IMG/VR virus record: IMGVR_UViG_3300042879_000458
Span: 1-29,786 of that record
Origin: a virus
Reading direction: 5' to 3' (one strand)
DNA: 29,786 bases
Below are positions 3,193 to 26,039 of the stretch, in pieces; within the stretch, counting starts at the first letter, position 1, and every line of letters begins with the position of its first letter. The position numbers and the translations under genes were made by a program. The notes under the pieces were generated by a model. It saw only the letters and a program-made list of their open reading frames with translations. It was not told the DNA's origin and made no database searches.

Positions 3193-3860
3193 ACTGGCGT
3201 GATTTCTTTTTGGTCAACCCGTACCAAGGCGCAAAGCTCGTCGAGCACGACTTGCAGGGCTGGGGCTCAGATGACCCGATGTTCGAGCAGGTCATTGAGG
3301 CCGTGCGCCCGACGACGATTATCGAGGTCGGCTCGTGGAAGGGGCGCTCTGCCGCGAACATCATGGCGATCTGCAAGCGTCTTGGGCTAGATGCGACTTT
3401 GCTTTGCATCGACACATGGCTAGGCTCGCTCGAGAACTACGACCGCCACGACGGCGAGAACAAGTGGCTGCATGAGGCACTGCGCTTGGATGTTGGCTAC
3501 CCTAAGCTGCATCAATTGTTCGTCTCCAACATGAAGCACCTTGGGCTAGAGGATCGCGTCATACCCCTCCCCCTACCCGCCTCCATCGCAGCGCGTGTCG
3601 TGGCCGAGAAAAAAATTCTGGCGGACGTGATTTACATCGACGGCTCGCACGACTACGAAGACTGCAAGTCTGACCTGCGCAATTACTGGCCGCTGCTGCG
3701 TGATGGTGGGATTTTATTCGGCGACGATTATCTCGCATGGCCCGGTGTCACCCGCGCCGTTGAGGAGTTCTGCGACGAGTTCCGGCTGCAGGATGTCGCC
3801 GTCAAGCGATCCGGTAAGTTCGCCATTGGCAAGGGCCGTGGAGTACAGGGGATCAAGTGA
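3189..3860 (+). CDS. Class I SAM-dependent methyltransferase (Methyltransf_24-like)
   Basis: A 223-residue protein started at the ATG at 3189, overlapping the terL stop; an in-frame start at 3150 inside terL is rejected. Motif I is IIEVGSWKGRSA (about residues 44-55), the SAM-binding loop. A later strand and loop, VIYIDGSHDYEDCKSDL (137-153), and GGILFGDDY (163-171) are the hallmark of the Methyltransf_24 / TylF / cephalosporin-hydroxylase-like group, which often acts on sugars or small molecules. It is the first gene of a block with two carbohydrate-related genes, so O-methylation of a glycan (a virion glycan or a host surface sugar) is a reasonable guess. It is not a recognisable DNA methyltransferase, since no DPPY-type or cytosine PC motif is seen. 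Confidence 0.82.
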   Translation: MNWRDFFLVNPYQGAKLVEHDLQGWGSDDPMFEQVIEAVRPTTIIEVGSWKGRSAANIMAICKRLGLDATLLCIDTWLGSLENYDRHDGENKWLHEALRLDVGYPKLHQLFVSNMKHLGLEDRVIPLPLPASIAARVVAEKKILADVIYIDGSHDYEDCKSDLRNYWPLLRDGGILFGDDYLAWPGVTRAVEEFCDEFRLQDVAVKRSGKFAIGKGRGVQGIK

Positions 3861-4465
3861 AGTATTACTGCATCACACTCGCAGAGACTCCCGAGCGCAC
3901 CGAACACGCTCGAGCGCAGGCTGCTAAGGCCGGCATAGAGCTCGACTTTATCCAAGGCATCTTTGGCAAGACCATGCAGGTCAAGTCTGAGATTCCGATG
4001 CACACGGATTATTACGTCACCCGTGGCGCGACTTGCCTTGTCTTGTCATGGCACATCGCGTGGCAGATCGCATGGCGCGACGGTCACGAGGAGTTCGTGA
4101 TCTTTGAGGATGATTTCATCCTGCCCGATAACTTCAACGAACGCTTTGCGCAGATTCGCGAGGAGATACCGCACTGGTGCGACCTCGTGTACTTGAACTC
4201 CTGTTGCACGACCGACAAACCCGGCAAGAAGGAGTCCACGAACCTGTGGGAGATTAAGTACCCGCTATGCACCGCCGCGATCTGGCACCGTCGCCGTGCG
4301 ATTCCGACGCTGCAACAGTACACCAAGCCCGCTAATACTCCGGTCGATATACTGCTCGAGTGGCACGCCCTGCCGCACCTGCGAGTTTTGACAGCCGTCC
4401 CGCCACTGGTATCGCAGGCCACGCAAGACTTGGCCGTGCCGATGCCATCCACGATCCATATGTGA
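3857..4465 (+). CDS. Glycosyltransferase family 25-like protein
   Basis: A 202-residue protein starting with GTG at 3857, overlapping the preceding TGA by four bases. The N-terminus (YYCITLAETPERTEHARAQA) matches the opening strand and helix of GT25/LPS-type galactosyltransferases ('I.L....R......'). The central FVIFEDDFILP stretch (Glu84-Asp86) is the acidic metal/nucleotide-sugar motif typical of that family. A later LVYLNSC strand and a paired aromatic/basic region follow. GT25 enzymes normally add a hexose to LPS core or to hydroxylysine. In a phage structural operon it may decorate a virion protein or alter host LPS. The length is at the short end of the family, but the fold appears complete. 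Confidence 0.72.
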   Translation: MKYYCITLAETPERTEHARAQAAKAGIELDFIQGIFGKTMQVKSEIPMHTDYYVTRGATCLVLSWHIAWQIAWRDGHEEFVIFEDDFILPDNFNERFAQIREEIPHWCDLVYLNSCCTTDKPGKKESTNLWEIKYPLCTAAIWHRRRAIPTLQQYTKPANTPVDILLEWHALPHLRVLTAVPPLVSQATQDLAVPMPSTIHM

Positions 4466-4469
4466 GGAG

Positions 4470-5483
4470 ATGATGAATGCTAAAACCAAGCGACGTGGCG
4501 CTATTCCAAAAGCGCCTCGACAAGAAAGCGCCGCCGAAGCCGGAAGCCAAGAAAGCGCCGGAGCCGAAAGACCCGAAGCCGCCTTCCCCGCCGAAGGCGG
4601 CGTAATTTTAGGCGACCACTTACCGGCTGACGCCTTCGTGCGCCTGTCGGTGCCGGAGTCGGAGAAGTATCTGCCGTGCAACCCGTCCATCGCCAAAGAT
4701 GCTGACGGGAACTTGGCGTGTCTAACCCGCACGGTGAACTATGAGCTCGGCGAGGAAGACGGCATCTGGTTCCGTGGCGACCCTGCGCCAAATACACGAA
4801 ACTATTTTCTAACCCTTGACTCTAAGGCGCACCAAAAGTCGGTCGAGTGGGTGGACGATCTAACCGTGCGCCACACCCGAGTCCCCGCACGAGACGGCCT
4901 TGAGGATGCGCGGCTCTTTTGGTTCGACGGTGCGTGGCAGTTTACCTGCTCGGCCCTACATCACGGACCCCGGGTGCGCACCACGATGGCGCTAGCCAAG
5001 CTAAGTAAGACCAGCATTGACCGCTTTGAGTTCCTCCATAGCCCTCACAGCCGTGAGATGGAGAAGAATTGGATGCCGTGCGTCAACGGCGCACGCTTGG
5101 CGTTCGTGTACTCGCATCACCCGGCTGAGTCGTTTGAAATTTACCCGGCTAAGACGCGAATCTGGCTCGGCGCCTTCCCTATCTTGCAAGGCTGGTCTGG
5201 CGGCTCGCAGATTATTCCCTATAACGGCGAATGGCTGGGCGTCGTCCACCAGCGCCGCAAGCGCAAGAACCGCGTTCACTATGCCCACCGGCTAGTCGCC
5301 TACAATGCCAACCTTGAGCCGGTACGGGCGGGGCGCGAGTTCTACTTTAAGGGCGAGCAGATTGAGTTCTGTGCCGGTATCGTCGAGCACAGTGGGTACT
5401 TCATCCTCTCCTTCGGTGTCAAGGATCGCGAGGCGTGGCTGGTTAAGCTAACGCCGACCCAGATTGCCTCGCTTTTCGTTTGA
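4470..5483 (+). CDS. GH130/GH43-like five-bladed beta-propeller glycosidase or phosphorylase
   Basis: The frame from 4470 encodes up to 337 residues. The recognisable domain begins near residue 48 (GDHLPADAFVRLSVPE) and runs to the end. Features of the GH130-type (mannoside phosphorylase-like) propeller include CNPSIA (70-75), LTRTVNY (85-91), EDARLFWFDG (145-154), EKNWMP (198-203), a GGSQ strand and a late EFCAGIV stretch. The ED..L and EKNW motifs occur in catalytic or sugar-contact loops in that superfamily. The first ~45 residues are low complexity and lie over the better-supported small frame at 4477-4605. The true start may therefore be later, for example GTG at 4638. It probably cleaves or rearranges a glycan made or attacked with the two upstream genes; the substrate is unknown. 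Confidence 0.68.
   Translation: MMNAKTKRRGAIPKAPRQESAAEAGSQESAGAERPEAAFPAEGGVILGDHLPADAFVRLSVPESEKYLPCNPSIAKDADGNLACLTRTVNYELGEEDGIWFRGDPAPNTRNYFLTLDSKAHQKSVEWVDDLTVRHTRVPARDGLEDARLFWFDGAWQFTCSALHHGPRVRTTMALAKLSKTSIDRFEFLHSPHSREMEKNWMPCVNGARLAFVYSHHPAESFEIYPAKTRIWLGAFPILQGWSGGSQIIPYNGEWLGVVHQRRKRKNRVHYAHRLVAYNANLEPVRAGREFYFKGEQIEFCAGIVEHSGYFILSFGVKDREAWLVKLTPTQIASLFV
4477..4605 (+). CDS. Possible 42-residue Lys/Pro/Ala-rich protein overlapping the next gene
   Basis: The ATG at 4477 opens a frame running to the TAA at 4603-4605. It begins MLKPSDVALFQKRLDKKAPP and continues as a Lys-Pro-Ala-Glu repeat-like tail. A GAGGAG at 4464-4469 sits seven bases upstream of this ATG, ideal spacing, whereas the overlapping ATGs at 4470 and 4473 are too close to it. 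Third codon positions are mostly G or C in this frame but mixed in the competing frame. So this frame is the better coding candidate over 4477-4605. It may be a separate small protein or the true N-terminus of the downstream beta-propeller protein joined by frameshifting. Function unknown. Confidence 0.5.
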   Translation: MLKPSDVALFQKRLDKKAPPKPEAKKAPEPKDPKPPSPPKAA

Positions 5484-9131: not shown

Positions 9132-9809
9132 ATGAGCAACGCATTTAGAGGGCAGACTCAGTACCAGCAGTCTCCCATGATGGGATACGGCGGCTACGGC
9201 GTCGGCGGATTGGGCGGCAATATTTACGCCCAGCTCGGCGGCAGCGCGGGCGGCTACGGTGGCGGCTACGGCAGCCCATTCTCGAGCAGCATCGGGGGCG
9301 GCTACGGCACGACCTTCGGCGGCTACGACATGGGCGGTGGTTACGGTGGTGGTTATAGCCAGCCGTCTCTTGTGCCGCAGTACCGGCCGACTATCAATGA
9401 TGCCTTCTCGCGGTACTTCTCGCAGCAATACTACGGCGGCGACGCCTTTAATCCTTTCGCGGCTACGTCGCTCTTCGGCGGCGGCTACGGCGGAGGATTT
9501 GGCGGCGGCAGACGTGGCGGCATGGGCGGCCGTATGCGCCGACGTCGTCAAATGTTTGAGGATTTGTTTGGGCCGCAGCAGCCGGCTGCACAGCCGGCAC
9601 CAGCCCTGCCAGAGCCGATGCCAGCGCAAAACGATTTAGTCATGTACGCCGGCGGATCGCCCGGGTTTTACTCGCAGCAGCAGCCTGTTATGCAGGAATT
9701 ACCGCAGCAAGCACCAGAGCTGCCGCCGCAGTTGCCGCCAACGATTGACTTCTCTCCGATTCAGAGAATGGGTGCAGTCCCGATGATTTATGGCGGATCT
9801 TTTTTTTAG
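9132..9809 (+). CDS. Gly/Tyr-rich low-complexity protein
   Basis: A 225-residue protein with a GGTGAAG ribosome-binding site just upstream. Residues 1-80 and 110-135 are dominated by GGYGGGYG-type repeats, broken by a short ordered-looking stretch (PQYRPTINDAFSRYFSQQ). A basic cluster RRGGMGGRMRRRRQ (about 127-140) precedes FEDLFGPQQP, and the C-terminus is Pro/Gln/Ala-rich with a final hydrophobic IYGGSFF. Such Gly-Tyr-Arg composition is typical of disordered or self-associating (prion-like) proteins. A structural or DNA-coating role inside the head is possible. No family is recognised, but proteins of this composition do occur in phage virion modules. Confidence 0.7.
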   Translation: MSNAFRGQTQYQQSPMMGYGGYGVGGLGGNIYAQLGGSAGGYGGGYGSPFSSSIGGGYGTTFGGYDMGGGYGGGYSQPSLVPQYRPTINDAFSRYFSQQYYGGDAFNPFAATSLFGGGYGGGFGGGRRGGMGGRMRRRRQMFEDLFGPQQPAAQPAPALPEPMPAQNDLVMYAGGSPGFYSQQQPVMQELPQQAPELPPQLPPTIDFSPIQRMGAVPMIYGGSFF

Positions 9810-11927: not shown

Positions 11928-12193
11928 GCGAACGCAATCCCTACATCGACGCCCGCAAGGGCCAGGAAGCCAAAGACCTCCTAGAGCACCCGATGCTCGT
12001 GGAGGCTTTTGCCGTTCTGGAGTCTGAATACCTCAAGGCGTGGCGGCAGAGCAAACCCGCCGACCAAGAGGAGCGCGAGCGGTTATGGCTCGCCGTAGGG
12101 ATTCTTGAGGAAATCCAGCGCCACCTGCGGATCGCCGTTGAGAATGGCGCGATGGCAAAAAGAGACATCGACAAGATTTCTGGGCGCAAATAA
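11924..12193 (+). CDS. Small helical phage protein upstream of scaffold
   Basis: Eighty-nine residues with a TTG start at 11924 overlapping the preceding stop. The sequence is entirely helical in character: AKDLLEHPMLVEAFAVLESEYLKAW, then QEERERLWLAVGILEEIQRHLRIAVENG. Short proteins with this two-helix 'LLxHPxLxEAFxxLExxxxxAW...LxxxLxxLExIxxxLxxxxxxG' pattern are common just before scaffold or capsid genes in tailed phages. The role is not established. Coupling by the TTGA overlap suggests coexpression with the 58-residue protein. Confidence 0.75.
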   Translation: MSERNPYIDARKGQEAKDLLEHPMLVEAFAVLESEYLKAWRQSKPADQEERERLWLAVGILEEIQRHLRIAVENGAMAKRDIDKISGRK

Positions 12194-12219
12194 TCCCTTG
12201 AATCTTGCACAATAGAGAT

Positions 12220-13188
12220 ATGAGCGAAACCGGCACGGGTGTACCCCCGGGAAACGTACAAACCACGCAAGATGTTTTCGAGCAGATGCTCGCCGCCGAT
12301 GAAGGCGAAAACGAGCAGCAAGAGACGGAAGGCGTGGATGAGGGGCTTGAGTTAGCGGACAGCGAGTCGGCTGACGAGAGCGATGAGCAAACCGAAGGCG
12401 ATGAGGAGGCCGAAGAGGCGCCCCAGCAGGCCCAGAAATTCCGCGTCAAGGTTGACGGGGAAGAAGTCGAGGTGCCGCTGGATGAGCTTCTAAAAGGCTA
12501 CTCACGCACCGCGGATTACACGCGCAAGACGCAAGCCATTGCGGAGGCCCGTAAACAGGCCGAAGCAGAGGCCGCGCTGGCGCGGGAAGAGCGGCAACGG
12601 TATGCGCAGACTTTGGCGGCCCTTGATGGCACGCTCAAGTCGCTGCAACCACCCGAGATCGACTGGGACAGACTCTACCAAGAGAACCCGGTTGAGTGGG
12701 TGAGACAGCGCGAGCTGGTGCGATCAAGGCAGGAGCAGGCGGCTTGGGTGCAGGCCCAGAAGCAGGCTCTCGTGGAGAAGCAGCAGGTTGAAGAGAGAGT
12801 CGAGGCTGAAAAGACCCTCGAAGCCGAACGCGGCAAGCTCTTGGAAGCCCTGCCAGAATGGCGCGACGCCGATAAGGCTCGCACCGAGAAGGCGAAGATC
12901 GTCTCTTATGCCACCGAAAGACTTGGCTTTAGTGTCGAGGAGATTTCGGACATATACGACGCCCGAGCCGTGCTGGCGCTGCGTAAGGCGATGATGTTCG
13001 ACGAGCTGATGAGCAAACGCGATCAGATGCGTCCGAAGATCATGCAAAAGGCGAAGCCGATGAAGGCTGGCGCCGCGTCCACGCCACAATCGTCCAAGGT
13101 CGTAGCATCCAAGGCGGCTCTTTCTAGACTCGCAAATAGTGGCAGCCACAAAGATGCGGCTGCTGTGTTTGAACAGTTTTTAGATTGA
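12220..13188 (+). CDS. Capsid assembly scaffolding protein
   Basis: A 322-residue protein directly before the capsid gene, started at the ATG at 12220 (a TTG at 12205 is less likely). The N-terminus (to about residue 70) is extremely acidic. It is followed by the strand/turn segment KFRVKVDGEEVEVPLDEL (73-90) and GYSRTADYTRKTQ, a signature of many phage scaffolds. A long coiled-coil rich in Glu, Gln, Ala and Arg (about 105-215) follows. The C-terminal part (KIMQKAKPMKAG...) is basic and probably binds the capsid shell, as in P22 scaffold. It guides capsid assembly and leaves or is degraded before packaging; no protease domain is seen here. Confidence 0.85.
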   Translation: MSETGTGVPPGNVQTTQDVFEQMLAADEGENEQQETEGVDEGLELADSESADESDEQTEGDEEAEEAPQQAQKFRVKVDGEEVEVPLDELLKGYSRTADYTRKTQAIAEARKQAEAEAALAREERQRYAQTLAALDGTLKSLQPPEIDWDRLYQENPVEWVRQRELVRSRQEQAAWVQAQKQALVEKQQVEERVEAEKTLEAERGKLLEALPEWRDADKARTEKAKIVSYATERLGFSVEEISDIYDARAVLALRKAMMFDELMSKRDQMRPKIMQKAKPMKAGAASTPQSSKVVASKAALSRLANSGSHKDAAAVFEQFLD

Positions 13189-13201
13189 GGAATTTTCACT
13201 A

Positions 13202-14182
13202 ATGTCACAGACAGCTAATACTTTCGATACCTTCGGCGCGAAGGGCATTCGTGAGTCACTCTCGAATGTCATCTATAACATCTCGCCCGAAGAGACCCCG
13301 TTCATGTCGAACATCGGCCGCGAGAACGTCAAAAACACGTTCTTTGAGTGGCAGACGGATGCCCTCGCTGCGGCCTCCACGACCAACGCGCAGATCGAAG
13401 GCGACGACGTGTCGTCCTACGATTCGACCACCGCGACGGTTCGTGTCGGCAACTACACGCAGGTCAGCCGCAAGACGCTCATCCTCTCGGGCACGCTCGA
13501 GTCGGTGGACAAGGCCGGCCGTCGCTCGGAGCTGGCCTACCAGCTTGCCAAGCGTTCTGCCGAACTGAAGCGCGACATGGAGTCGATCATGCTCACCAAC
13601 CAAGCCGCCTCGGGTGGCTCGGCTGGTGTCAGCACGGCGCTCCGTAAGACGGGCTCGCTCCTTGCCTTCATCAAGTCCAACACGGACAAGGGCACGACCG
13701 GCGCTGATCCGTCGTACACCACGCAGCCGAACGCGACCCGCACGGACGCGACCGACGCCAACCTGCGCACGTTCACCGAGACGATTCTCAAGAGCGTGAT
13801 CCAGAAGGTGTGGGCCGCTGGCGGTACGCCGAAGATTCTGATGGTCGGCCCCGTCAACAAGCAGCGCGTTTCGGGCTTCGCGGGTATCGCGGAACTCCGT
13901 CGCGATGTTGCCGGCAACAAGCCGGGCGTCATCATCGGCGCCGCCGATGTTTACGTCAGCGACTTCGGCGCGGTGTCGGTTGTCCCCAACCGCTTCCAGC
14001 GTGAGCGTGATGCTTTCGTGCTCGACCCCGAGTACGCAAGCGTTGCCTTCCTGCGTCCCTTCCAGACTGTGGAACTTGCGAAGACCGGCGACGCCGAGAA
14101 GCGCATGATCCTCGTCGAGTGGGGCTTGAAGGTCAACACCGAGGCCGCGCACGGTCTCGCCGCTGACCTCACCACGACTTGA
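13202..14182 (+). CDS. Major capsid protein (SU10/DUF5309 family)
   Basis: A 326-residue HK97-fold capsid protein of the DUF5309/SU10 family. The N-terminus TFDTFGAKGIRESLSNVIYNISPEETPF is diagnostic. It is followed by FFEWQTDAL, then QVSRKTLILSGTLESVDKAGR (the E-loop to P-domain region) and ELKRDMESIMLTNQAA (the spine helix). The tail end has RDAFVLDPEYASVAFLRPFQ and EWGLKVNTEAAHG. It forms the icosahedral shell around the DNA. A GAGG lies about ten bases upstream of the ATG at 13202. Codon use is strongly GC-biased, as expected for a highly expressed late gene. A large reverse-strand open frame over this gene is a composition artefact. Confidence 0.95.
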   Translation: MSQTANTFDTFGAKGIRESLSNVIYNISPEETPFMSNIGRENVKNTFFEWQTDALAAASTTNAQIEGDDVSSYDSTTATVRVGNYTQVSRKTLILSGTLESVDKAGRRSELAYQLAKRSAELKRDMESIMLTNQAASGGSAGVSTALRKTGSLLAFIKSNTDKGTTGADPSYTTQPNATRTDATDANLRTFTETILKSVIQKVWAAGGTPKILMVGPVNKQRVSGFAGIAELRRDVAGNKPGVIIGAADVYVSDFGAVSVVPNRFQRERDAFVLDPEYASVAFLRPFQTVELAKTGDAEKRMILVEWGLKVNTEAAHGLAADLTTT

Positions 14183-14244: not shown

Positions 14245-14565
14245 ATGAATTCATCGGGCAAGCGTTTATTTGATTACGACCCGAACACAGGCACCACGAA
14301 GTGGTGGCACTACGATGCCGACAAAGATGAGGCCACGATTGAGACGGTCTTTGAAGTCGGCGATCTGATTGAGCAGAACAAAAAGCAGTATGCCGCGACC
14401 GACGAACGGGCGCGGTGGGGCGAGTGGAACAAGGTGGCGTCGATCCCGATGGCACTCTTCTACAAGCTCAAGCAGCAGGGGATCATTGACGATCCCAAGA
14501 AGATGAAAGCCTGGTTGAACGATAGAGACAACCAGTTATTTAGAACACGGGCGGGTCGCGTATGA
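14245..14565 (+). CDS. Conserved phage protein in the head-tail region (function unknown)
   Basis: A 106-residue protein with AGGA about six bases before the ATG at 14245. It reads FDYDPNTGTTKWWHYDADKD, then IETVFEVGDLIEQNKKQY, then WGEWNKVASIPMALFYKLKQ, ending KKMKAWLNDRDNQLFRTRAG. This pattern ('D..TG....f.yd......i....dv...le.Nk...n......g....w..vA.IP..v...w...G....d....k.lnd.....lR') is a widespread phage family next to capsid genes. It has no agreed function. Its stop overlaps the next ATG (ATGA). Confidence 0.8.
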   Translation: MNSSGKRLFDYDPNTGTTKWWHYDADKDEATIETVFEVGDLIEQNKKQYAATDERARWGEWNKVASIPMALFYKLKQQGIIDDPKKMKAWLNDRDNQLFRTRAGRV

Positions 14566-15230
14566 GCCGCTCGGTTGCGATTTTAGTCCCCGCAAGGGAC
14601 ACGGTGATGACCTCGTTTGCCTATGACCTAGCGCGGGCGATGTCATTCCACACCGCGACAACGGACGACCGCGTGATGCTTTATACATCGCACGGAACTC
14701 TGATCGCCTCTCAGCGTATGGAGCTTGCGCGTCAAGCACTCGAGGAGAAGGCAGACTATCTCCTCTGGCTTGATTCAGATATGCGGTTCCCGAAGGAAAC
14801 CATCGGGCACTTGATTCTGCGTGACAAGCCCATCGTGGCCGCGAACTATGCGACGCGTCGTATGCCCGTCAAGCCGGTGGCGATGATGGACGACGACGGG
14901 AAGATAGGCCGCGTGTATACCGCCCCAGACTCGGAAGGGCTGCAGCCGGTGGACTACATCGGCATGGGCGTAATGATGGTCAAGCGCGAGGTGTTTGAGA
15001 AACTCGACGCGCCGTGGTTTGCGATCCCGTACTCAACGATCGGGTCGCACTACATCGGGGAAGACGTGTTCTTCTGCCGCAAGGCGCGCGAGGCTGGTTA
15101 CGAGGTACTGGTCGACCACGACCTCTCGCACCAGGTCAAGCACATCGGTACGTTTGAGTACTCGCACGAAGGTGCGTGGGCGATGAAGGAACAGGTGGAC
15201 GGTGGCTCTAACATCATACAGCGCGCTTAA
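14562..15230 (+). CDS. GT-A type glycosyltransferase
   Basis: A 222-residue protein, started at the ATG overlapping the previous stop. The fold features are clear: the SVAILVPARD strand at the N-terminus (instead of the usual 'vsivIPt'), ADYLLWLDSDMRFP with the DxD metal/nucleotide motif at Asp71-Asp73, and KPIVAANYATR. A GEDVFFCRKAREAGYEV stretch (167-183) is the acceptor/catalytic Glu-Asp region seen in family 2 enzymes. HQVKHIG near the end is a likely third metal/phosphate contact. It is inserted between head-completion genes rather than in the sugar cassette near the portal. A role in glycosylating the virion or host surface is inference. It overlaps the adaptor gene by 29 bases. Confidence 0.8.
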   Translation: MSRSVAILVPARDTVMTSFAYDLARAMSFHTATTDDRVMLYTSHGTLIASQRMELARQALEEKADYLLWLDSDMRFPKETIGHLILRDKPIVAANYATRRMPVKPVAMMDDDGKIGRVYTAPDSEGLQPVDYIGMGVMMVKREVFEKLDAPWFAIPYSTIGSHYIGEDVFFCRKAREAGYEVLVDHDLSHQVKHIGTFEYSHEGAWAMKEQVDGGSNIIQRA

Positions 15231-16214: not shown

Positions 16215-16217
16215 TTG

Positions 16218-17003
16218 ATGGCAGGCTACGGCTCGGGGTTATATGGCCGTGGCAATTATGGCATCGACCCGAAAGAGGGCGCTGCCAGTCTAAGCGCGTC
16301 CGGCACGTTATCGTGCGCCGGGGTGCGTGTGGCGCTTGGCGCCTCGGCGATGAGCGCCACGGCGTCGCTGACGGCGGTGGGGAATCGCGTACAGTTCGCA
16401 TCGGCGGCAATGTCTGCTTCGGCGACTGTCACGGCGGCGGGAGAGCGGATCGCGCTAGGCGCGTCGGCGATGAGTGCAAGTGGCACCGTCGCCTGTGCGA
16501 GCCAGGTCGTGATGCTGGGCGCGGCCGCGATAAGCGGCACGGCGACGTTCTCGGCGTCCGCGACGAGGGTGCGACTCGGCGACTCTGCCATGTCGGCCTC
16601 GGCGACGGTCAGCGCGGTCGGGGTGCGCGTCGCCCTTGGCGCGTGCTCGGCGAGCGCATCGGCAGCGCAGACGGCGGCCGCGCAGAGGGTGCGACTTGGC
16701 GCGTCGGCGATGGCCGGCGCGGCGACGGTCGCGGCCAACGCGGAGGCAGTGTACGAGAGCGGGTCGAGCATGGCTGGGGTGGCGTCTCTCGCCGCCTCAT
16801 GTGAGCGGATCCAGCGCGCATCGTGCGCCATATCCGCCACAGCGGTGCTGACGTGCGCGGGGCGCAAGAAGTGGGAAGACGACCCAGACACGCCGGAGTC
16901 GTGGTCGCAGATTTCGGATACGGCAGAGACATGGACGCCGGTCGCAGACACGGCGGAGACTTGGACAGAGAAAACACACCCGGCCTACTTACAGGCCGCT
17001 TGA
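16218..17003 (+). CDS. Protein of ten 20-residue repeats, probable virion appendage
   Basis: A 261-residue protein with the ATG at 16218; a TTG at 16215 directly before it is less likely. It opens MAGYGSGLYGRGNYGIDPKE, a Gly-Tyr-rich start seen in several phage appendage proteins. Residues 21-220 are ten consecutive units of exactly 20 residues, typified by GASAMSASATVSAVGVRVAL: small and polar residues alternate with hydrophobic ones and a Gly or Ala sits at each unit boundary. This is the pattern of a beta-solenoid or a trimeric beta-helix stalk. The C-terminus has three 10-residue repeats (DTAETWTPVA type) with conserved Trp, then a short tail. The repeat-number variability expected of such DNA makes this a likely host-contact or spacer element. 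No named family is recognised. Confidence 0.72.
   Translation: MAGYGSGLYGRGNYGIDPKEGAASLSASGTLSCAGVRVALGASAMSATASLTAVGNRVQFASAAMSASATVTAAGERIALGASAMSASGTVACASQVVMLGAAAISGTATFSASATRVRLGDSAMSASATVSAVGVRVALGACSASASAAQTAAAQRVRLGASAMAGAATVAANAEAVYESGSSMAGVASLAASCERIQRASCAISATAVLTCAGRKKWEDDPDTPESWSQISDTAETWTPVADTAETWTEKTHPAYLQAA
16278..16877 (+). repeat. Ten-unit 60-base coding repeat
   Basis: Each unit is exactly 60 bases (20 codons), phase-locked with no insertions over 600 bases. Divergence between units is substantial (for example units 2 and 6 share GASAMSA/GDSAMSA and the SA.ATV core), so the array is old rather than a recent expansion. The strict length shows strong structural constraint at the protein level. 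It is a coding repeat, not a CRISPR array, since there are no unique spacers. Confidence 0.9.
16887..16976 (+). repeat. Three 30-base coding repeats with conserved Trp
   Basis: Residues 224-253 of the repeat protein read DTPESWSQIS, DTAETWTPVA and DTAETWTEKT, each ten residues. Each unit has one Trp and an acidic D-x-x-E/D-x-W pattern. These look like short surface repeats and may bind a partner or sugar; the function is unknown. Confidence 0.8.
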
Positions 17004-17014
17004 GGTAACTAGCG

Positions 17015-18433
17015 ATGGCTGACACAACTACTACCAACCTTGGCCTGACGAAGCCGGAAGTCGGCGCGTCGGCAGACACCTGGGGCGGAAAGATCAACAC
17101 CAACCTAGATTTGGTTGACGGCATTTTCAAGGGCGACGGCACCGGCACGTCTGTCGGTCTGAACGTCGGCTCCGGCAAGACGCTCGCCATCGCCGGCACG
17201 CTGTCCAACAGCGCCGGCACCGCCAACGGCGTGCTGTATCTGAACGGCAGTAAGGTGGCGACGAGTGGGAGTGCGCTGTCGTTTAGTGGAACGCAACTCG
17301 CCGTAACTGGGTCGGTTAGCAGCAGCAATTCTGGTAACGAAAATTATTTTTTGTCAGATGGATTAACTCGCACGTCGTTGCAGCAAAGCGGCAATGCGTT
17401 GTATTACAACATTAATGACAACAGCGCGACTACCGGTTCGTTTATTTGGCGTAACACCAATGCACTTTCTGAGTTAATGCGCCTCACCTCCACGGGCCTC
17501 GGCATCGGGACGAGTTCGCCTACCGCAAAACTCCACGTTTGGCAAACCGGTGCTGCGACAAGTCTTAATATAGATGGTATAGAAAATCCAATCTTTGCTA
17601 CCCGTTACGCCGCCAACGCTGATGGCGCTACGATTTTCCTTGCTAAAAGCAGAAACGCTACCGTTGGCTCGCAGACTATAGTGCAGAACGGTGATGAACT
17701 TGGCGCACTAAAAGCGCGTGGTAGTAATGGCAGTTCGTTCGTAGATGCGGCAGCAATTTTCTTTAATGTCGATGGCACACCCGGATCAGGGTCGGACATG
17801 CCGGGGCGTATTGTATTTGGCACGTCTCCGGATGGCACCGCAGGTATTTTAGAACGCGCCAGAATCGACTCGTCTGGGAATATGGGAGTGGGTACGACTT
17901 CTCCTTCAAACAAATTTGTAGTGTCCAACGCAGGTGCGGCGGGTCTTGAAATCGCCCCAACTGGTACGGCCTCTAACCCGACAATCTTAAGTTTCAATCG
18001 CTCAACGGCTGCTTACGGTCAGTTGACGTTCGCAAGTGACTTCCTCGTTTTTATGACGAATGGAACGAACGAGCGCGCCCGCATCAGTTCAACAGGAGCA
18101 ATAACCGCGCAGCAGTCAACGCTTAAAGGCCCATACATTTCTGCTGGAGACGTTGTAAGTGTTGCAAGCGGCGGAACAGTAACGATTTGCTCTACTGAAG
18201 CCGGTGCTTTATTGGTATTGGCTTATAACCCCTCAAACGGAAGGGGAGGTGTATTTTTTGAAAACTATGTTGGAACAGGCACAAAAATAGCAGGTGACGG
18301 AGAAGCAACAGATACTGGGTCAACTTTTGCTATTTACAAAAGTAACAACAGCCATACCGTAACTTTTAAAAATAAGGAAGCATCGACTCAATCGTATCGC
18401 TTCGCCGTTTACTCTGCCAATGCCGTATTTTAA
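17015..18433 (+). CDS. Tail fibre protein
   Basis: A 472-residue protein starting at the ATG at 17015. The N-terminus [20 protein letters not shown] followed by [19 protein letters not shown] is the typical virion-attachment start of phage tail fibres. The remainder is Gly/Ser/Thr/Asn-rich beta structure with the repeated '[13 protein letters not shown]' and '[13 protein letters not shown]' motifs found in fibre shafts that often precede an S74 or other tip. Here no S74 domain follows and the end is a compact strand-rich tip ([15 protein letters not shown] region). The base composition shifts from GC-rich in the first 100 codons to AT-richer after about 17300. That is consistent with exchange of the distal host-recognition part. 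Confidence 0.85.
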
Positions 18434-18866: not shown

Positions 18867-19088
18867 ATGTCGGAGAATGAAGTGGAACTCGCGATGCTAC
18901 GAAAAGACCTTGAGCTGCTACAGTCTGACTTGTCAGAACTCAAGGCCGACGTGAAACAGCTCGCGACGGCGTGGAAGACGGCGGAAAACCTTGTGGCCTT
19001 TGTCAAAGGGCTTGCAGGGCTTGGCGCCGCGATCATGCTTCTAGTTGGCATATTTAAGGGCTGGTTCGTACCATCCTCAAAGGAGTAG
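18867..19088 (+). CDS. Small coiled-coil plus membrane protein, holin-like
   Basis: A 73-residue protein with ATG at 18867. Residues 5-40 form a coiled coil (EVELAMLRKDLELLQSDLSE...). These are followed by VAFVKGLAGLGAAIMLLVGIF (about 44-64), one hydrophobic segment, and a short C-terminal tail GWFVPSSKE. This is the layout of small phage membrane proteins often annotated as holin-like. A better holin candidate sits with the endolysin at 26528. This one could be an anti-holin, a pinholin partner or a tail-associated membrane protein. Confidence 0.65.
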   Translation: MSENEVELAMLRKDLELLQSDLSELKADVKQLATAWKTAENLVAFVKGLAGLGAAIMLLVGIFKGWFVPSSKE

Positions 19089-19092
19089 CGCC

Positions 19093-20568
19093 TTGGCGTT
19101 AGTTCCCATCAATCTGCAGCCGGGCGTTTATCGCAACGGCACCGACTACCAGAGCAAGGGCCGCTGGCGAGACGCCAGCCTCGTGCGCTGGTACGAGGGC
19201 ACCATGCGCCCGGTGGGCGGCTGGCGCAAGCGCGCCTCGGGCCAGCTTACGGGCAAGGCGCGAGGTCTGATCGCGTGGCGCACCAATGCCAACGCCAGAT
19301 GGATCGGCATCGGCACACACAGCAAGCTCTACGCGATGAACGAGGCGGGCACGATCACCGACATCACCCCGGCAGGGTTTACGGTCGGCAACGCCGACGC
19401 GGTGCTGAACTTGGGCTATGGCGGCGGCCCCTACGGTCTTTTCACCTACGGCACCCCGCGCGCTGACACCGGCACGCTGACGCCGGCGACGACGTGGACG
19501 CTCGACAACTGGGGCGAGTACCTCCTCGCCTGCTCCAACGCGGACGGCAAGATATACGAGTGGCAGCTCAACACGGCGAACGACGCGGTGGCGCTGACCA
19601 ACGCGCCGACCGGCAACAAGGCCGTGCTCGTCACCGCAGAGCGGTTCGTGTTCGCGCTCGGCGCGGGCGGCAACGCGCGAAAGGTGGCGTGGTCTGATCA
19701 AGAAGATAACACGATGTGGACGCCTGCGGTCACGAACCAGGCGGGCGACATTGAGCTTGAGACGGTCGGCTCCATCGTGACCGCGAAGCGTCTGCGTGGC
19801 GTAAACCTTATCTTTACCGACGTGGACGTGCACACCGCGCAGTACCAAGGCGCGCCATTTGTGTACGGCTTTGAGCGTATCGCGACCGGGTGCGGCGTCA
19901 TCAGCGCGCAAGCCGTTGCCGCCGTGGAGTCGGTCGCGTACTGGTGGTCGCCCGCAGGGTTCTTCATGTACGACGGTTTCGTGCGCCCGCTCAAGTGCGA
20001 CGTGCTCGACTACCTCGTCAACAACCTCTCGCAGACGCAGCGTTCCAAGGTGTACGCGGTCGCTAACAACCAGTTTGGCGAGGTGTGGTGGTTCTACCCG
20101 AGTGCGTCTAACACTGAGGTAGACTCCTACGTCGCGTACAACTACCGCGAGGGGCACTGGACTATTGGCTCGCTCGCGCGCACCTGCGGCACCGACCGAG
20201 GTGTCTTCACCTACCCGATCATGGTATCCGTTGACGGGTACGTCTATGAGCACGAGGTGGGTGTCACCTACGACGGCGCGGTGCCGTTCGCGCGCACCGG
20301 GCCGATTGAATTCGGCGACGGTGATCGGTTGATGGTCGCGAAGCAGCTTATCGCCGACGAGAAGACGCAGGGCCAGGTCGGGGTGCAGTTCATCACGAAG
20401 TTTGCGCCGAACGGGTCGGAGACGACCAAGACCTATACAATAGACTCTATTTATACGCCGGTACGCTTTACCGGCAGGCAGGTAGAGATGAAGGTCACGG
20501 GCGACTCCATGACCGACTGGCGCGTGGGCGTAATGCGCCTCGACGCGGTGCCGGGTGGGCAGCGATGA
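19093..20568 (+). CDS. P22 gp10-like DNA stabilisation / tail hub protein
   Basis: A 491-residue protein started with TTG at 19093, supported by AAAGGAG about ten bases upstream; the in-frame start at 19045 overlaps the previous gene and is rejected. The opening VPINLQPGVYRNGTDYQSKG, then GRWRDASLVRWYEGTMRPVG and a repeated 'xxWtxxxGxxLxxcxxxGxxYxW' blade pattern indicate a beta-propeller. This is typical of P22 gp10-like tail hub proteins that close the channel below the adaptor. A late VEMKVTGDSMTDWRVGVMRL segment is also conserved in the family. It would stabilise packaged DNA and join the tail tip or needle. Confidence 0.75.
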   Translation: MALVPINLQPGVYRNGTDYQSKGRWRDASLVRWYEGTMRPVGGWRKRASGQLTGKARGLIAWRTNANARWIGIGTHSKLYAMNEAGTITDITPAGFTVGNADAVLNLGYGGGPYGLFTYGTPRADTGTLTPATTWTLDNWGEYLLACSNADGKIYEWQLNTANDAVALTNAPTGNKAVLVTAERFVFALGAGGNARKVAWSDQEDNTMWTPAVTNQAGDIELETVGSIVTAKRLRGVNLIFTDVDVHTAQYQGAPFVYGFERIATGCGVISAQAVAAVESVAYWWSPAGFFMYDGFVRPLKCDVLDYLVNNLSQTQRSKVYAVANNQFGEVWWFYPSASNTEVDSYVAYNYREGHWTIGSLARTCGTDRGVFTYPIMVSVDGYVYEHEVGVTYDGAVPFARTGPIEFGDGDRLMVAKQLIADEKTQGQVGVQFITKFAPNGSETTKTYTIDSIYTPVRFTGRQVEMKVTGDSMTDWRVGVMRLDAVPGGQR

Positions 20569-20945
20569 TTAATACAGAGGACGTTGAAGGGCTGGAGTAC
20601 GTCGCCCCGTTTCGCGAGCTGATTGAGCGCGCGCTGGCGCACAACTACGGCCAGCTCAATTACGCTGACGTGATCGAGGGCATCAAGGCCGGTGAGTACC
20701 AGTTCTGGTCGTCGGAAAACTCCTGCGTCATCACGACCGTGGACGTGTTCCCGCGACTCAAGCAGCTGACGGTCATCATCGGCGCAGGGGACTTGGGCGA
20801 GATCGACAAGATCATCCGCCCGGTCATTGAGGAGTGGGCGCGGCACATCAACTGCGACACGATGCTGATTATGGGACGCCCTGGCTGGCAGCGGGCGCTT
20901 GAAGGATACAGACGCACGGCGGTCGTGCTAGAGAAAAGACTATGA
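20565..20945 (+). CDS. Internal virion protein A-like small protein (GNAT-like)
   Basis: A 126-residue protein, its ATG overlapping the previous stop. It has a helix near the N-terminus (APFRELIERALAHNYGQLNY), a strand region with QFWSSENSCVITTVDVFPR, then LTVIIGAGDLGEIDKIIRPV and a conserved end MGRPGWQRALEGYRRTAVVL. The ending 'GR.GW.r.L.g...tavvLek.l' matches the group of T7 gp13-like or GNAT-like phage proteins that act in internal virion assembly. Catalytic acetyl-CoA residues are not evident. The neighbouring ejection-type genes support a virion role. Confidence 0.72.
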   Translation: MINTEDVEGLEYVAPFRELIERALAHNYGQLNYADVIEGIKAGEYQFWSSENSCVITTVDVFPRLKQLTVIIGAGDLGEIDKIIRPVIEEWARHINCDTMLIMGRPGWQRALEGYRRTAVVLEKRL

Positions 20946-22636
20946 GTAAACTGTTCCAGTCAAAGAAGAAGGAAGTCTCCAAGACGGAGATTGACCCGCA
21001 GATCTATAACCGCGTACTGGGCAACCTCCAGTTTGCGGAGCAGGTCGCGGCGATTCCTTATGAGCCGTACCGTGGCCTCATGGTCGCACCGTTCACGCGC
21101 GACTACATGGCCGGCGAAGCGGCGACGCGACGTATCGCACAAGAGGGGGGATTTGTCCCAGAGGTTGAGGCCGCCGCGCGTAACGCGATGGGCCTCATGG
21201 GGTTCCAGCCCGAGCGGGTGGGTGCTGAACGTGTCGGCGCCTCACTCGCTCGCGGGCCGGAGCGTATCTCTGCCGGTCGCGTCGGTACGACCTTTGCGCC
21301 AGAGCGCATCGGTGCGGGACGAGTAGGCACCACGTTCGCGGCGCGTGATATCGCCGCACCGGGTGCCGCGCCGACCGTGCAGGCCGCCTCCTTCTTGGGC
21401 CAAGACCTTGGCCGCTACATGAACCCCTTTGAGCAGGCCGTCATCGAGACGGGGCTTGAGGACTTGGATCGGGCCGAGCGCGCGCGGCAGGCAGAGCTTG
21501 GGCGTCGCGCGACCGCAGCGCGCGCCTTTGGCGGCTCGCGACAGGCCGTAGAGGCGGGCATCGCCGCCGGTGAGGCAGCCCGCGAGCGCAATCGGTTTGT
21601 CGCCGAGCAGCGCGCGCAAGCCTTCCGCGAGGCGGCTGCCTTGCGACAGGCGGACGTAGGCCGCGAGCAGGAGGCGGCGCTTGCCAACCAGTCGGCGGCG
21701 CAGAACGTGATGGAGCTCGCGCAGCGCGGCCAGATCACGAACCAGCAGCGCGACCTTGAGCTGGCGCGCCTTGGTTTGACCTCGGAGCAGGCAAACGTCG
21801 ACGCGCAGATGCGCGCCGCGCTTGCGAACCAGCAGGCAATGCAAGAGGCAGAGCGTGCGCGGCTCACGGCAGAGACGACGAACGTGCAGGCGGGACTTGA
21901 GGCCGAGCGCGCTAACCAGCAGGCGATGCAGCAGTATATGCAGATGGGCCTGTCCGCCGAGGAGGCGAACCAGCGCGCGATGCTCGAGGCGGGTCGCGCC
22001 AACCAAGCGGCAGGGCTGCAGGGCGCAGAGTTTAGGCTCGGCGCTGGTCGCGAGCTTGCCGGGTTTGGCACGACGGCGCTGCAGAACCGCTACGGTGCCG
22101 CGTCGGCGCTCATGGGTCTCGGCAGCGCGCAGCAGAACCTCTACCAGCAGTTCCTCAACGCGCAGCGTGAGGAAGACTTGCGCCGGCAGCAGTTCCCGCT
22201 CCAGCAGCTTGCGATTCGGCAGGGTGCGGTGTCGGCGAGCCCGTATAACGTGACCCAGACGGGGACCGTAACTGGCCGCCCAAGTTATTGGGAAATGGCT
22301 GGAAAGGTCGCCACGGCCTTTGCTGGGTCTGACGAAAACATGAAGGTCGATATCCGCGGTATTAAGAATCCGCTCGACAAGATCAACCGTCTCAAGGGGA
22401 TTGAGTTTGAGTGGGCTGACGGATATGGCAGCAAGGAAGGCGATGACGAGGGCGGCGAGACTGATATGAGCCTCTCAGCCCAAGACGTTGAGAAGGTGAT
22501 GCCGGAAGCGGTAAGCCGTCGCGAGAGCGACGGTATGCGGCAGGTTGACTTCCCGCAACTTGTGGGTCTTTTGACCGAGGCTGTTAAGGAACTAGACAAG
22601 AAAGTAGAAGGCGGCAAGCGCCGCAGGAAGGCTTGA
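20942..22636 (+). CDS. Large helical virion protein with C-terminal S74 auto-processing domain
   Basis: A 564-residue protein. Residues 85-135 hold short repeats (PERISAGRVGTTFA then PERIGAGRVGTTFA). Residues about 165-425 are a long Ala/Gln/Glu/Arg-rich helical body with recurring ANQQAM segments (295, 324, 342). The C-terminal ~100 residues are a Peptidase_S74 intramolecular chaperone: SDENMKVDI carries Ser463 and Lys468, the presumed catalytic pair, followed by INRLKGIEFEW, LSAQDVEKVMPEAV and VDFPQLVGLLTEAVKELDKK. This domain normally trimerises a tail spike or fibre and then cuts itself off before the Ser. Here it is on a mainly helical protein among ejection-type genes, which is unusual. 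It may be a tail-tip or internal protein whose assembly needs trimerisation. Confidence 0.82.
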   Translation: MSKLFQSKKKEVSKTEIDPQIYNRVLGNLQFAEQVAAIPYEPYRGLMVAPFTRDYMAGEAATRRIAQEGGFVPEVEAAARNAMGLMGFQPERVGAERVGASLARGPERISAGRVGTTFAPERIGAGRVGTTFAARDIAAPGAAPTVQAASFLGQDLGRYMNPFEQAVIETGLEDLDRAERARQAELGRRATAARAFGGSRQAVEAGIAAGEAARERNRFVAEQRAQAFREAAALRQADVGREQEAALANQSAAQNVMELAQRGQITNQQRDLELARLGLTSEQANVDAQMRAALANQQAMQEAERARLTAETTNVQAGLEAERANQQAMQQYMQMGLSAEEANQRAMLEAGRANQAAGLQGAEFRLGAGRELAGFGTTALQNRYGAASALMGLGSAQQNLYQQFLNAQREEDLRRQQFPLQQLAIRQGAVSASPYNVTQTGTVTGRPSYWEMAGKVATAFAGSDENMKVDIRGIKNPLDKINRLKGIEFEWADGYGSKEGDDEGGETDMSLSAQDVEKVMPEAVSRRESDGMRQVDFPQLVGLLTEAVKELDKKVEGGKRRRKA

Positions 22637-22950: not shown

Positions 22951-24111
22951 ATGGCAGACGGTATATTCAAAAACATCGGCAGCGCATTCAATCGCTACAT
23001 TGGTGGCTTGCTTGGTGAAGACGTTGAAAGCATGACACCAGAAGAGCGTCGCCGAGCGCGTATGGCCGCCATTGGCGCCATTGGGCGTGCAATGTCAAAT
23101 CCAGAGCTTGGAACGGCTCCGATTGAGGCTGTCCGTGCTAGTCGCAAAGCGGCTCAAGATCAGCAAGAGTTAAAGCGACGACAGGCGGCTGCAGAGGCCG
23201 CGCTTCCAGACATCTCTAGCCGCATATTCGGTGGCCGCACTGGCACTATGATTGAGGATGTTGAGGGCGGCCCTGCGACGCCGTTGATGGCGCGTCGCGC
23301 ACCAACCGCTGCCGGCGCTCGAGAAGCGATTGGCATGATGTACGGCACGCAGGCTGGACGTGATGTCGCGACGATGGCGCCAGGATTAATGACGGCTGCG
23401 CAGGAACAGATGAGGCCTGGCGAGTTTGTTTATCAGAACGTGCCGAACGTCGGCCTCGTTGCGGTAAGCAAGACCAATCCGTCTGACGTGCGAGTTGTTC
23501 AGAAAGTTGGCAGGGAACCTGCTGCTCCTGCAAAGCCGGAGTTAAAAGCTATTCGTCTTGCCAATGGCATGATGCAGGATATGTGGATTGCGCCGGGACA
23601 AAATGAATCGCAAGGGGTTAGAGTAGGCGCGCCTTATGTTCCGAAGGGCGCGGATGGCGAAACACTAAATGCTCGCCAAAGAACTGGCGTAGCAATGACT
23701 CAAGACGCTGCAGTTAATTATGCAGTAAATGTCACTGGCCTGCCAAAAGCTGAAATTGAAAAAATGAGTCCGGCGCAAGTTGAGGCTGCAATCATTAAGC
23801 GTGGCGGCAGAGTATTGCAGGGCGGAACTGCAAGAATAGTGTCTGGCCTTCCTGTTATTGGAGACTTCGCCAGCACGTTCGTTGCTGCCGCCAATGCTGA
23901 TTTGCTTGGCCCGGCAGCTCAAGGAGCTGCAGGTATTGCAAACCTTCAAAATCCTTCCGGTACAATTACTGGCACAGATTTGACTGCAGCAGGAACACAG
24001 TTCCCGAATGCAATGATGCCCATTGAAACTCAAGCGCAAATGATTAGATCATTGCTTGAGCAGTCAAGGCAGATCGAGCAGTACGACGCAAACGGAAACA
24101 AGGTGCGATAA
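22951..24111 (+). CDS. Putative internal/ejected virion protein (386 residues)
   Basis: ATG at 22951. The N-terminus is MADGIFKNIGSAFNRYIGGL followed by ESMTPEERRRARMAAIGAIG and a helix (about 45-85). This pattern recurs in phage proteins encoded just before the long ejection protein. The middle contains a compact strand region (GEFVYQNVPNVGLVAVS). The C-terminal half (from about residue 190) is AT-richer and has an ordered helix segment (TQDAAVNYAVNVTGLPKAEI) and a hydrophobic stretch (GLPVIGDFASTFVAAANADL). No catalytic motif is visible. It probably helps the next gene's protein enter the cell envelope. Confidence 0.65.
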   Translation: MADGIFKNIGSAFNRYIGGLLGEDVESMTPEERRRARMAAIGAIGRAMSNPELGTAPIEAVRASRKAAQDQQELKRRQAAAEAALPDISSRIFGGRTGTMIEDVEGGPATPLMARRAPTAAGAREAIGMMYGTQAGRDVATMAPGLMTAAQEQMRPGEFVYQNVPNVGLVAVSKTNPSDVRVVQKVGREPAAPAKPELKAIRLANGMMQDMWIAPGQNESQGVRVGAPYVPKGADGETLNARQRTGVAMTQDAAVNYAVNVTGLPKAEIEKMSPAQVEAAIIKRGGRVLQGGTARIVSGLPVIGDFASTFVAAANADLLGPAAQGAAGIANLQNPSGTITGTDLTAAGTQFPNAMMPIETQAQMIRSLLEQSRQIEQYDANGNKVR

Positions 24112-26039
24112 TGGCCATCATAGTAGAAATGCCAGACGGCACGACGGCTCAATTTCCAGACGGCACCAAGCCGGAGGTCATTGAGCGCGTCAAACGCGAG
24201 AAGGCTGCTGCGATGCAGCGCAGACAACCAGAGCAGCAGACACCGGGGATGCTGCAGACAGCGATCCGCGCATTTGGGCAGGGCGTCACCTATGGCGGAT
24301 CGGATGAGGCTATTGCCGCCGCAGAATCTGCCCTTGGCCGTATGCCATACGCCAAGAGCCTTGAGGAGCAGCGCCGAGAGCAGGACGCTATGCGCCGCGC
24401 TAATCCGATTACTTACGGTGTCTCTGAATTGGCCGGAGCATTGGCCTCACCGTATCCGTTTGGCAAGGCCGGCGCGGTTACGTCTGCAGGTGGCAGACTG
24501 CTACGCGAGGCCGGCATCAGCGGCGGCATCGGTGCCGTGCAGGGTGCCCTTGAAGCCGAACCAGGAAGCCGTGCCGCGGGCGCTGCTACAGGCGGCGCGA
24601 CCGCTGCCGTTGTCGGCCCTGCATTTGCGAGCGCGATGGACTTTGCTCGTGGCGGCAGAGAAGTTCTCGGACGCGCATTTAGACCAGACGAGCCGCGTAT
24701 TGCGTCGCAGCAAGTACTTAACGCCATGCGAGAGGCTGGCGTAACCGGGCCAGAGCTTCGGCAGCAAATTCTCACCGGGCGACCGGATGAGACGGTGCCG
24801 TTTGGTATGCGCCTAGGTATGCCGGGTCAGCTCGCGGCAGAGCGTGCCGCAATTGGTGGCGGAGCCGCTGCTGATATCTCTCGAGAAACTTCTGAGAACA
24901 TACTCTCCGAGTCTGGCGCCCGAGTGATGAACGTCGTCAACGAGATGACCGGGAACGATCGCAGGTTCACGCAAGACATTCTTGATACGTTTAAGAAAGC
25001 GCGAGACAAGAACGCGAGCGATCTTTACGGAAAGGCGCGCGCGGTCGGTATCGTGCAAGATGACGAAATCGTGGACATGATCGTCAGAGACCCGCTGACG
25101 AGGAGCCTCTACAAGCAGGCCCAGGTAAACGCGCAAAGAAAGGAAAACCTAAAGCTGCCGGATTTGGTGGACAAGGATGGCAACCTAATACAGAACGCTT
25201 ACCCGTCTGTGGCGGCGCTTGATTATCTTTTGCGCGCGCTTCGCGCCAAGAAAGATCAAGCCTTCAAGCAGGGCAACGTCAACGCTGATGGAATTAAATC
25301 GCTATTTGATAGCCTTGACTCGCGTGTTAAGGAGCTTGTGCCAGAGTACGCTGCTGCGCGATCAAGGTTTGCAGACGACTCTGAGTTAATCAAGCTGTCG
25401 CAACTTGGCCAGCAGTTCATCAATATGTCGGAGTCTGCTCGTAAAGTGGCATTGCGCGGCCTTGACCCAGATAAAATGGATGTGGTGCGAGCGACTGCGC
25501 GTGATGCTCTTTTCAATAGACTCGCCTCTGCCGATGACGTTGGCCTTGCTAGGATGCTGACCGCATCAAAGCAAAACCGCGACCTTCTTGAATTTCTTGC
25601 CGTATCTCCCGAGCAGGCCGCGCAGGCCGCGCTTCGGATTCGGCAGGAGCGGCAGCTTCAAGAGTTCTCGAGAGCGATCAACCCGAACATCGGGTCACGC
25701 ACCGCGAGGACGATGGCCGCTGCCGGAGAGGGCGTCGATCAATTGGCTAGCGCAGAGCGTGCCACGCAATTCTTGAGCGGCAACGCGGCGTCTCGGTTTA
25801 TGACAATGCTCAACATCGCCGGCGGTCGTCTGCGCGGGCTCACACCTGGAGCCAGAGAAGACATGGCGCGAATGCTGACGGAACTTGAGCCGCAGCAGCA
25901 GATGCAGATTCTCGACCGGCTCGACCTTGAGGATCAGAGGCTGATGCGAGAGACGATTGACCGCGCCAACAAGAGAATGCGCAGCGTGCAGACCGGCGCG
26001 CGTATTCCGGGCCTGCTGTCAACAGAGGAGCGCGAATGA
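24111..26039 (+). CDS. Large putative ejection protein with glycine-zipper-like segment
   Basis: A 642-residue protein, ATG overlapping the previous stop by one base. The opening IIVEMPDGTTAQFPDGTKPE followed by VIERVKRE is a motif seen at the N-terminus of many phage internal virion proteins. Residues about 105-175 form a Gly/Ala-rich hydrophobic stretch (SGGIGAVQGALEAE...GATGGATAAVVG) resembling a membrane-inserting glycine zipper. The rest is long and helical (residues about 200-600), with charged Arg/Asp/Gln content. Such proteins are ejected with the DNA and form a channel through the Gram-negative envelope. No lytic transglycosylase motif is seen. The protein is the largest of the internal cluster. 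Confidence 0.72.
   Translation: MAIIVEMPDGTTAQFPDGTKPEVIERVKREKAAAMQRRQPEQQTPGMLQTAIRAFGQGVTYGGSDEAIAAAESALGRMPYAKSLEEQRREQDAMRRANPITYGVSELAGALASPYPFGKAGAVTSAGGRLLREAGISGGIGAVQGALEAEPGSRAAGAATGGATAAVVGPAFASAMDFARGGREVLGRAFRPDEPRIASQQVLNAMREAGVTGPELRQQILTGRPDETVPFGMRLGMPGQLAAERAAIGGGAAADISRETSENILSESGARVMNVVNEMTGNDRRFTQDILDTFKKARDKNASDLYGKARAVGIVQDDEIVDMIVRDPLTRSLYKQAQVNAQRKENLKLPDLVDKDGNLIQNAYPSVAALDYLLRALRAKKDQAFKQGNVNADGIKSLFDSLDSRVKELVPEYAAARSRFADDSELIKLSQLGQQFINMSESARKVALRGLDPDKMDVVRATARDALFNRLASADDVGLARMLTASKQNRDLLEFLAVSPEQAAQAALRIRQERQLQEFSRAINPNIGSRTARTMAAAGEGVDQLASAERATQFLSGNAASRFMTMLNIAGGRLRGLTPGAREDMARMLTELEPQQQMQILDRLDLEDQRLMRETIDRANKRMRSVQTGARIPGLLSTEERE

Follow-up and report, generated by a model that had tools for sequence, protein, structure and literature searches.

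A probable DNA-ejection protein with a C-terminal peptidase S74 domain in a phage of the SU10/LUZ24 short-tailed type

Here we report that the protein encoded by ORF 20942-22636 of a virus record from IMG/VR is probably a DNA-ejection (internal virion) protein of an SU10/LUZ24-type phage with a removable C-terminal S74 domain, as judged from sequence comparison. The S74 domain is best known for folding tail fibres and for self-cutting, and is usually taken as the mark of a fibre or spike. A literature search for S74 together with ejection or injection proteins found no paper discussing the combination. Ejection proteins with S74 are already present within PHROG 4287 and in annotated genomes of isolated phages, under fibre or spike names, and the group described here adds a full-length S74 with a coiled-coil helix and a repeat-expanded body. 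The data suggest that phages use S74 as a device for folding and cutting beyond their tail fibres. Should ejection proteins carry a terminal S74 as well, many fibre and spike names may be mistaken, and predictions of receptor-binding proteins that rely on S74 may point to the wrong genes. A directly testable question also arises, namely whether ejection proteins form trimers on assembly and are processed at their C-terminus.

Genomic setting and family of the protein

The window, meaning the whole stretch of DNA that was analysed, is the 29,786-base virus record IMGVR_UViG_3300042879_000458 (positions 1 to 29,786). Its portal (Pfam PF23899, E=2e-210) and adaptor (PF24175, E=5e-36) are of the SU10 type, and the record is therefore assigned to a phage of the SU10/LUZ24 short-tailed type. 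ORF 20942-22636 (564 aa) lies between the gene of a tail stabilisation or nozzle-position protein (19045..20568; phrog_3287, E=4.7e-84), whose product shares 60% identity with the MW202879 “phage stabilization protein”, and internal virion genes, including that of a large helical, probable internal virion protein (24111..26039; phrog_5880, E=8.1e-35) with an N-terminus similar to phiM5 internal virion protein 31 (E=8e-8); all three genes are on the + strand. The neighbourhood of ejection-type genes described in the initial annotation is thus borne out, and the order of nozzle/stabilisation, ejection-family and internal virion genes is shared with phiM5, Ochrobactrum OH, Microcystis MJing1 and MW202879.

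Directly 5' of the ORF, and overlapping its ATG with a stop codon (ATGA), is a small acetyltransferase-like gene (20565..20945, + strand; 38% identity, E=2e-28 to a putative acetyltransferase of MW202879). Such a gene is seemingly found at the same place in phiM5, OH, MJing1, DB2, LUZ24, VPp1 and MW202879, the last being the one that was aligned. Methyltransferase- and glycosyltransferase-like genes occupy 3150-5483 and 14562-15230, one stretch lying between the terminase and portal genes and the other between the capsid and adaptor genes. Two further products gave no PHROG match: a protein of ~25-residue repeats like “VRLGASAMSASATVSAVG” just 5' of the tail-fibre gene (16215-17003), and a Gly/Tyr-rich protein of 225 residues 3' of a virion structural protein gene (9132-9809).

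The body of the ejection-family protein, upstream of S74, is rich in Ala, Gln, Glu and Arg, as had been noted initially; the AF2 model of the full-length protein (39 sequences, pLDDT 42.7) predicts mostly helix for it at very low confidence, and that of the S74 domain alone (20 sequences, pLDDT 51.1) was likewise poor, both being monomer models. Several segments can be told apart within it on the + strand. Variable-length repeats (ERVGAERVGASL / ERISAGRVGTTFAPERIGAGRVGTTF) at residues 91-145 (21212..21376), with copy numbers that shift among aligned relatives, precede a conserved core at residues 156-250 (21407..21691) with the signature YMNP...ARAFGGSRQ, recognised by alignment and profile comparison. 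The ANQQAM-like repeats of the initial annotation proved to be a 29-residue tandem unit (autocorrelation peak at 29, confirmed in the alignment), present in three copies starting at residues 276, 305 and 334 (residues 276-362; 21767..22027) and in 2-8 copies in relatives, as counted with a simple motif. The length of the relatives, 563-829 aa or more, varies with repeat number in these two places; as both arrays change copy number between close relatives, ejection-protein length is evolving fast. A charge-poor tail (residues 437-462; 22250..22327), the predicted mature C-terminus, closes the body at a place equivalent to the end of S74-less relatives, and is less hydrophobic than the corresponding tails of phiM5 or SU10.

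Over the whole of both proteins, S74 included, the window protein is collinear with phiM5 gp27 (26% identity, BLASTP E=4e-22), a protein that according to its record was detected in the proteome of the phage particle. The “DNA ejection protein” family phrog_4287 is matched by phiM5 gp27 (6.5e-91), SU10 gp21 (9.5e-118) and SU10 gp22 (3.5e-109). The window protein itself matches it at 1.4e-8 over residues 320-540, partly within S74, and the body alone has no PHROG ejection match below E=1; family membership therefore derives from the relatives and the whole-length alignment. An iterated profile search linked the body to phiM5 gp27, OH gp40 and proteins of MJing1, MW202711, MW202496, MW202879 and Octadecabacter DB2, all at the same gene position, and an HMM of the body matched the phiM5, OH, MJing1 and MW202711 proteins at 1e-24 to 1e-29. 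The core is common to phiM5 gp27, OH gp40 and MJing1, and is degenerate in LUZ24 gp53 and in SU10 gp22-type proteins. In profile comparisons, remote family members matched the SU10 gp22 type (4.6e-7) and the LUZ24 gp53 type (1.8e-7), and these two types matched each other (2.9e-11); reversed controls reached 0.02 at best. It was through gp22-type proteins and PHROG 4287 that the connection to SU10 emerged; hhalign with an alignment weighted to the close family gave no signal against SU10 gp18, gp19 or gp21. SU10 gp20-24, as a set, are found in virions and are lost on genome release (PMC9509320). By these alignments and profiles, the body is placed in a short-tailed-phage DNA-ejection family with phiM5 gp27 and SU10 gp21/gp22. 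The names “tailspike” for phiM5 gp27 and “tail fiber domain-containing” for OH gp40 most likely rest on S74.

Close relatives of the window protein are numerous in IMG/VR. In the phage collection no record covered 80% of it, DNA searches of phage records found nothing, and a scan of genome contigs based on the diverse alignment turned up no relatives. Octadecabacter DB virus 2 has the family divided between two neighbouring genes, of which one (12180-12833) corresponds to the N-terminal part and the next (12834-13739) to the core plus S74.

The S74 domain and its predicted removal

As initially proposed, the protein ends in an S74 domain with the pair Ser463/Lys468. The Peptidase_S74 (intramolecular chaperone) domain spans residues 463-564 (22328..22633, + strand), with a Pfam PF13884 match over residues 463-524 (E=2.1e-12; score 47.6 bits, cut-off 22). 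Its predicted catalytic dyad lies five residues apart in SDENMK (22328..22345, + strand); S463, D464 and K468 are invariant in an alignment of 29 sequences, and S-x4-K is kept in all 68 close relatives that have body plus S74 (64 by automatic matching, 4 by visual inspection). For the domain, dN/dS was 0.016-0.108 in the three pairs with unsaturated dS, and the domain is therefore under strong constraint. A C-terminal helix at residues 536-556 (22547..22609, + strand) carries Ile, Leu, Val, Met or Phe at all a/d positions, with a period of 3.50 (p=0.022 by shuffling). Judged by domain match and substitution rates, this is a real, intact S74 domain under purifying selection, carried by a helical virion-type protein.

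The dyad corresponds to S911/K916 of endoNF and S587/K592 of MyRF (PMC8326128). In both proteins S74 trimerises the chains and the dyad cuts in the trimer (PMC8326128, PMC3742443), and in MyRF trimerisation is reported to be driven by the helix equivalent to the C-terminal one described here (PMC8326128). We propose that in the window protein the heptad helix would likewise trimerise, keeping three chains associated while the protein folds or the head is assembled; Ser463/Lys468 would then cut before Ser463 in the trimer, at a site predicted between Gly462 and Ser463, and free about 102 residues. The product, residues 1-462 with an exposed, weakly hydrophobic tail, would be packaged and then ejected ahead of the DNA, possibly as part of a channel through the envelope. 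Both cleavage and trimerisation are inferred here from the conserved residues and the helix. An analogous precedent for processing of an ejection protein is P22 gp7, from which a host protease removes the N-terminal 20 residues before packaging (PMC4992974).

S74 is an optional module in this family. It is missing from the proteins of L069, L070, L071, MW202879, MW202711 and MJing1, as well as from SU10 gp21, SU10 gp22, LUZ24 gp53 and VPp1 gp17, and because such relatives exist it is not essential to the family's fold. The S74-less members end after a charge-poor tail rich in Gly, Ala and Ser. From a shared anchor, 33-54 residues lead to the C-terminus in the S74-less proteins of L069, L070, MJing1, MW202711 and MW202879, and 21-59 residues lead to the predicted cut in S74-bearing members, so that cleavage before Ser463 would yield a protein corresponding to the S74-less forms. 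This match of tail lengths is the main, though indirect, evidence suggesting that S74 is removable. Shortened S74s that lack the C-terminal helix occur in phiM5, OH, DB2 and Grimontviridae relatives. Among the last, the DNA injection proteins of Cronobacter A24 (L110, 2366-3598), Aeromonas BUCT695 (L111, 2378-3580) and Proteus P59 (L112, 2369-3598) terminate with an S74-like domain that is short and divergent and scores no higher than the Pfam cut-off; none is annotated as such.

These shortened domains also indicate that S74 here need not act as it does in endosialidases, and it is conceivable, if unlikely, that an uncleaved S74 is kept on the ejection protein as a permanent trimerisation or docking module. 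In endoNF an upstream triple beta-helix helps to trigger cleavage (PMC8326128), and no such structure is apparent in the window protein, where the low-confidence AF2 model predicts no strands upstream of S74. A helical upstream region would be no bar to cleavage, since in MyRF the stalk residues play no role in the cleavage reaction (PMC8326128). A permanent module is further at odds with the S-x4-K spacing, found in every S74-bearing member inspected, shortened S74s included, and with S74-less members that end at the predicted cut.

We tentatively suggest that proteins ejected into cells may have acquired S74, on one or more occasions, as an assembly cap that removes itself: it would trimerise the ejection protein, mask a membrane-active tail until assembly and then cut itself off. 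If true, intramolecular chaperoning would reach beyond surface fibres to the machinery of genome delivery, and a trimeric state would be implied for the ejection protein described here.

Needle and tail-fibre readings

The initial annotation raised the possibility of a needle or tip, with S74 assisting the assembly of its trimeric coiled coil; in such a reading the long coiled coil would plug the nozzle. The gene does follow the nozzle-position gene, as SU10 gp18, the needle (PMC9509320), follows gp17, and trimeric tail parts are the normal clients of S74. Profile comparison with SU10 gp18 shows, however, no similarity (hhalign probability 0.2%, E=0.38), while the relation to ejection proteins of the phiM5 gp27 and SU10 gp21/gp22 kind is clear. 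Hydrophobic periodicity in body residues 170-260 and 240-372 does not rise above that of shuffled sequences, and a heptad pattern was found in the C-terminal helix of S74 but not in the body. A repeat that ranges from 2 to 8 copies among close relatives would also be odd for a needle of fixed reach. We therefore regard a needle as quite improbable; the coiled-coil proposal finds no support, and an ejection protein is preferred.

The same annotation contrasted the S74 on this protein with its absence from the tail fibre gene. For the window this holds: the tail-fibre-like protein at 17015..18433 (+ strand; PHROG tail fibre matches) lacks S74, and a combined S74 profile found ORF 20942 alone. 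It does not hold as a general contrast, since, of the 33 relatives with enough upstream sequence for a judgement, 20 have a second, mostly fibre-like S74 ORF upstream. Fibre without and ejection protein with S74 in the window, the reverse in L070, and S74 on both in L009, L014 and others indicate, at the level of gene content, that S74 on the tail fibre is independent of S74 on the ejection protein; the contrast in the window is a local coincidence. A swap of S74 from the fibre to the ejection gene was considered and rejected, as S74 is found on the ejection protein alone in the window, on the fibre alone in L070, and on both in L009, L014 and others.

In an unrooted tree of S74 domains, in which FIB_L030 was cut at the wrong serine and P59 dropped out, the ejection S74s of the window group cluster in a single clade (100/99), distinct from fibre S74s on the same contigs and from the short S74s of phiM5, OH, MW202496, DB2, A24 and BUCT695 (97/94). 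That S74 is a passive remnant, acquired by recent fusion from a tail fibre of the same phage, would fit its frequency on fibres of the same phages but is hardly credible, being contradicted by this tree, by the strong purifying selection seen in dN/dS, and by body plus S74 in 68 relatives.

Comparison with known systems

The closest known system is phiM5 gp27 (ARV77528.1, “putative tailspike protein/chaperone of endosialidase”), which shares with the window protein whole-length collinearity, the FGGSR core, a hydrophobic tail (less so in the window protein) followed by an S74 with S-x4-K, and the internal virion protein genes that follow. It differs in having no 29-residue array and a short S74 (78 aa) without the C-terminal heptad helix. 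Within PHROG 4287, A24, BUCT695 and P59 resemble the window protein in their S74-like end after a Gly-rich tail, whereas SU10 gp21/gp22 have no S74 and that of Grimontviridae is short. LUZ24 gp53 and VPp1 gp17 (phrog_7477) are likewise virion particle proteins encoded in the same neighbourhood. They carry a degenerate ...GSSRAGVAEGIA motif, and LUZ24 gp53 has a Gly/Ala-rich C-terminus, but both proteins lack S74 and the repeat array. The S74 (ICA) domains of endosialidase NF and MyRF share with the window S74 the Ser/Lys dyad at +5, the C-terminal placement and the C-terminal heptad helix; the window S74, whose cleavage and trimerisation are predicted, follows a helical, low-complexity region in place of a triple beta-helix.
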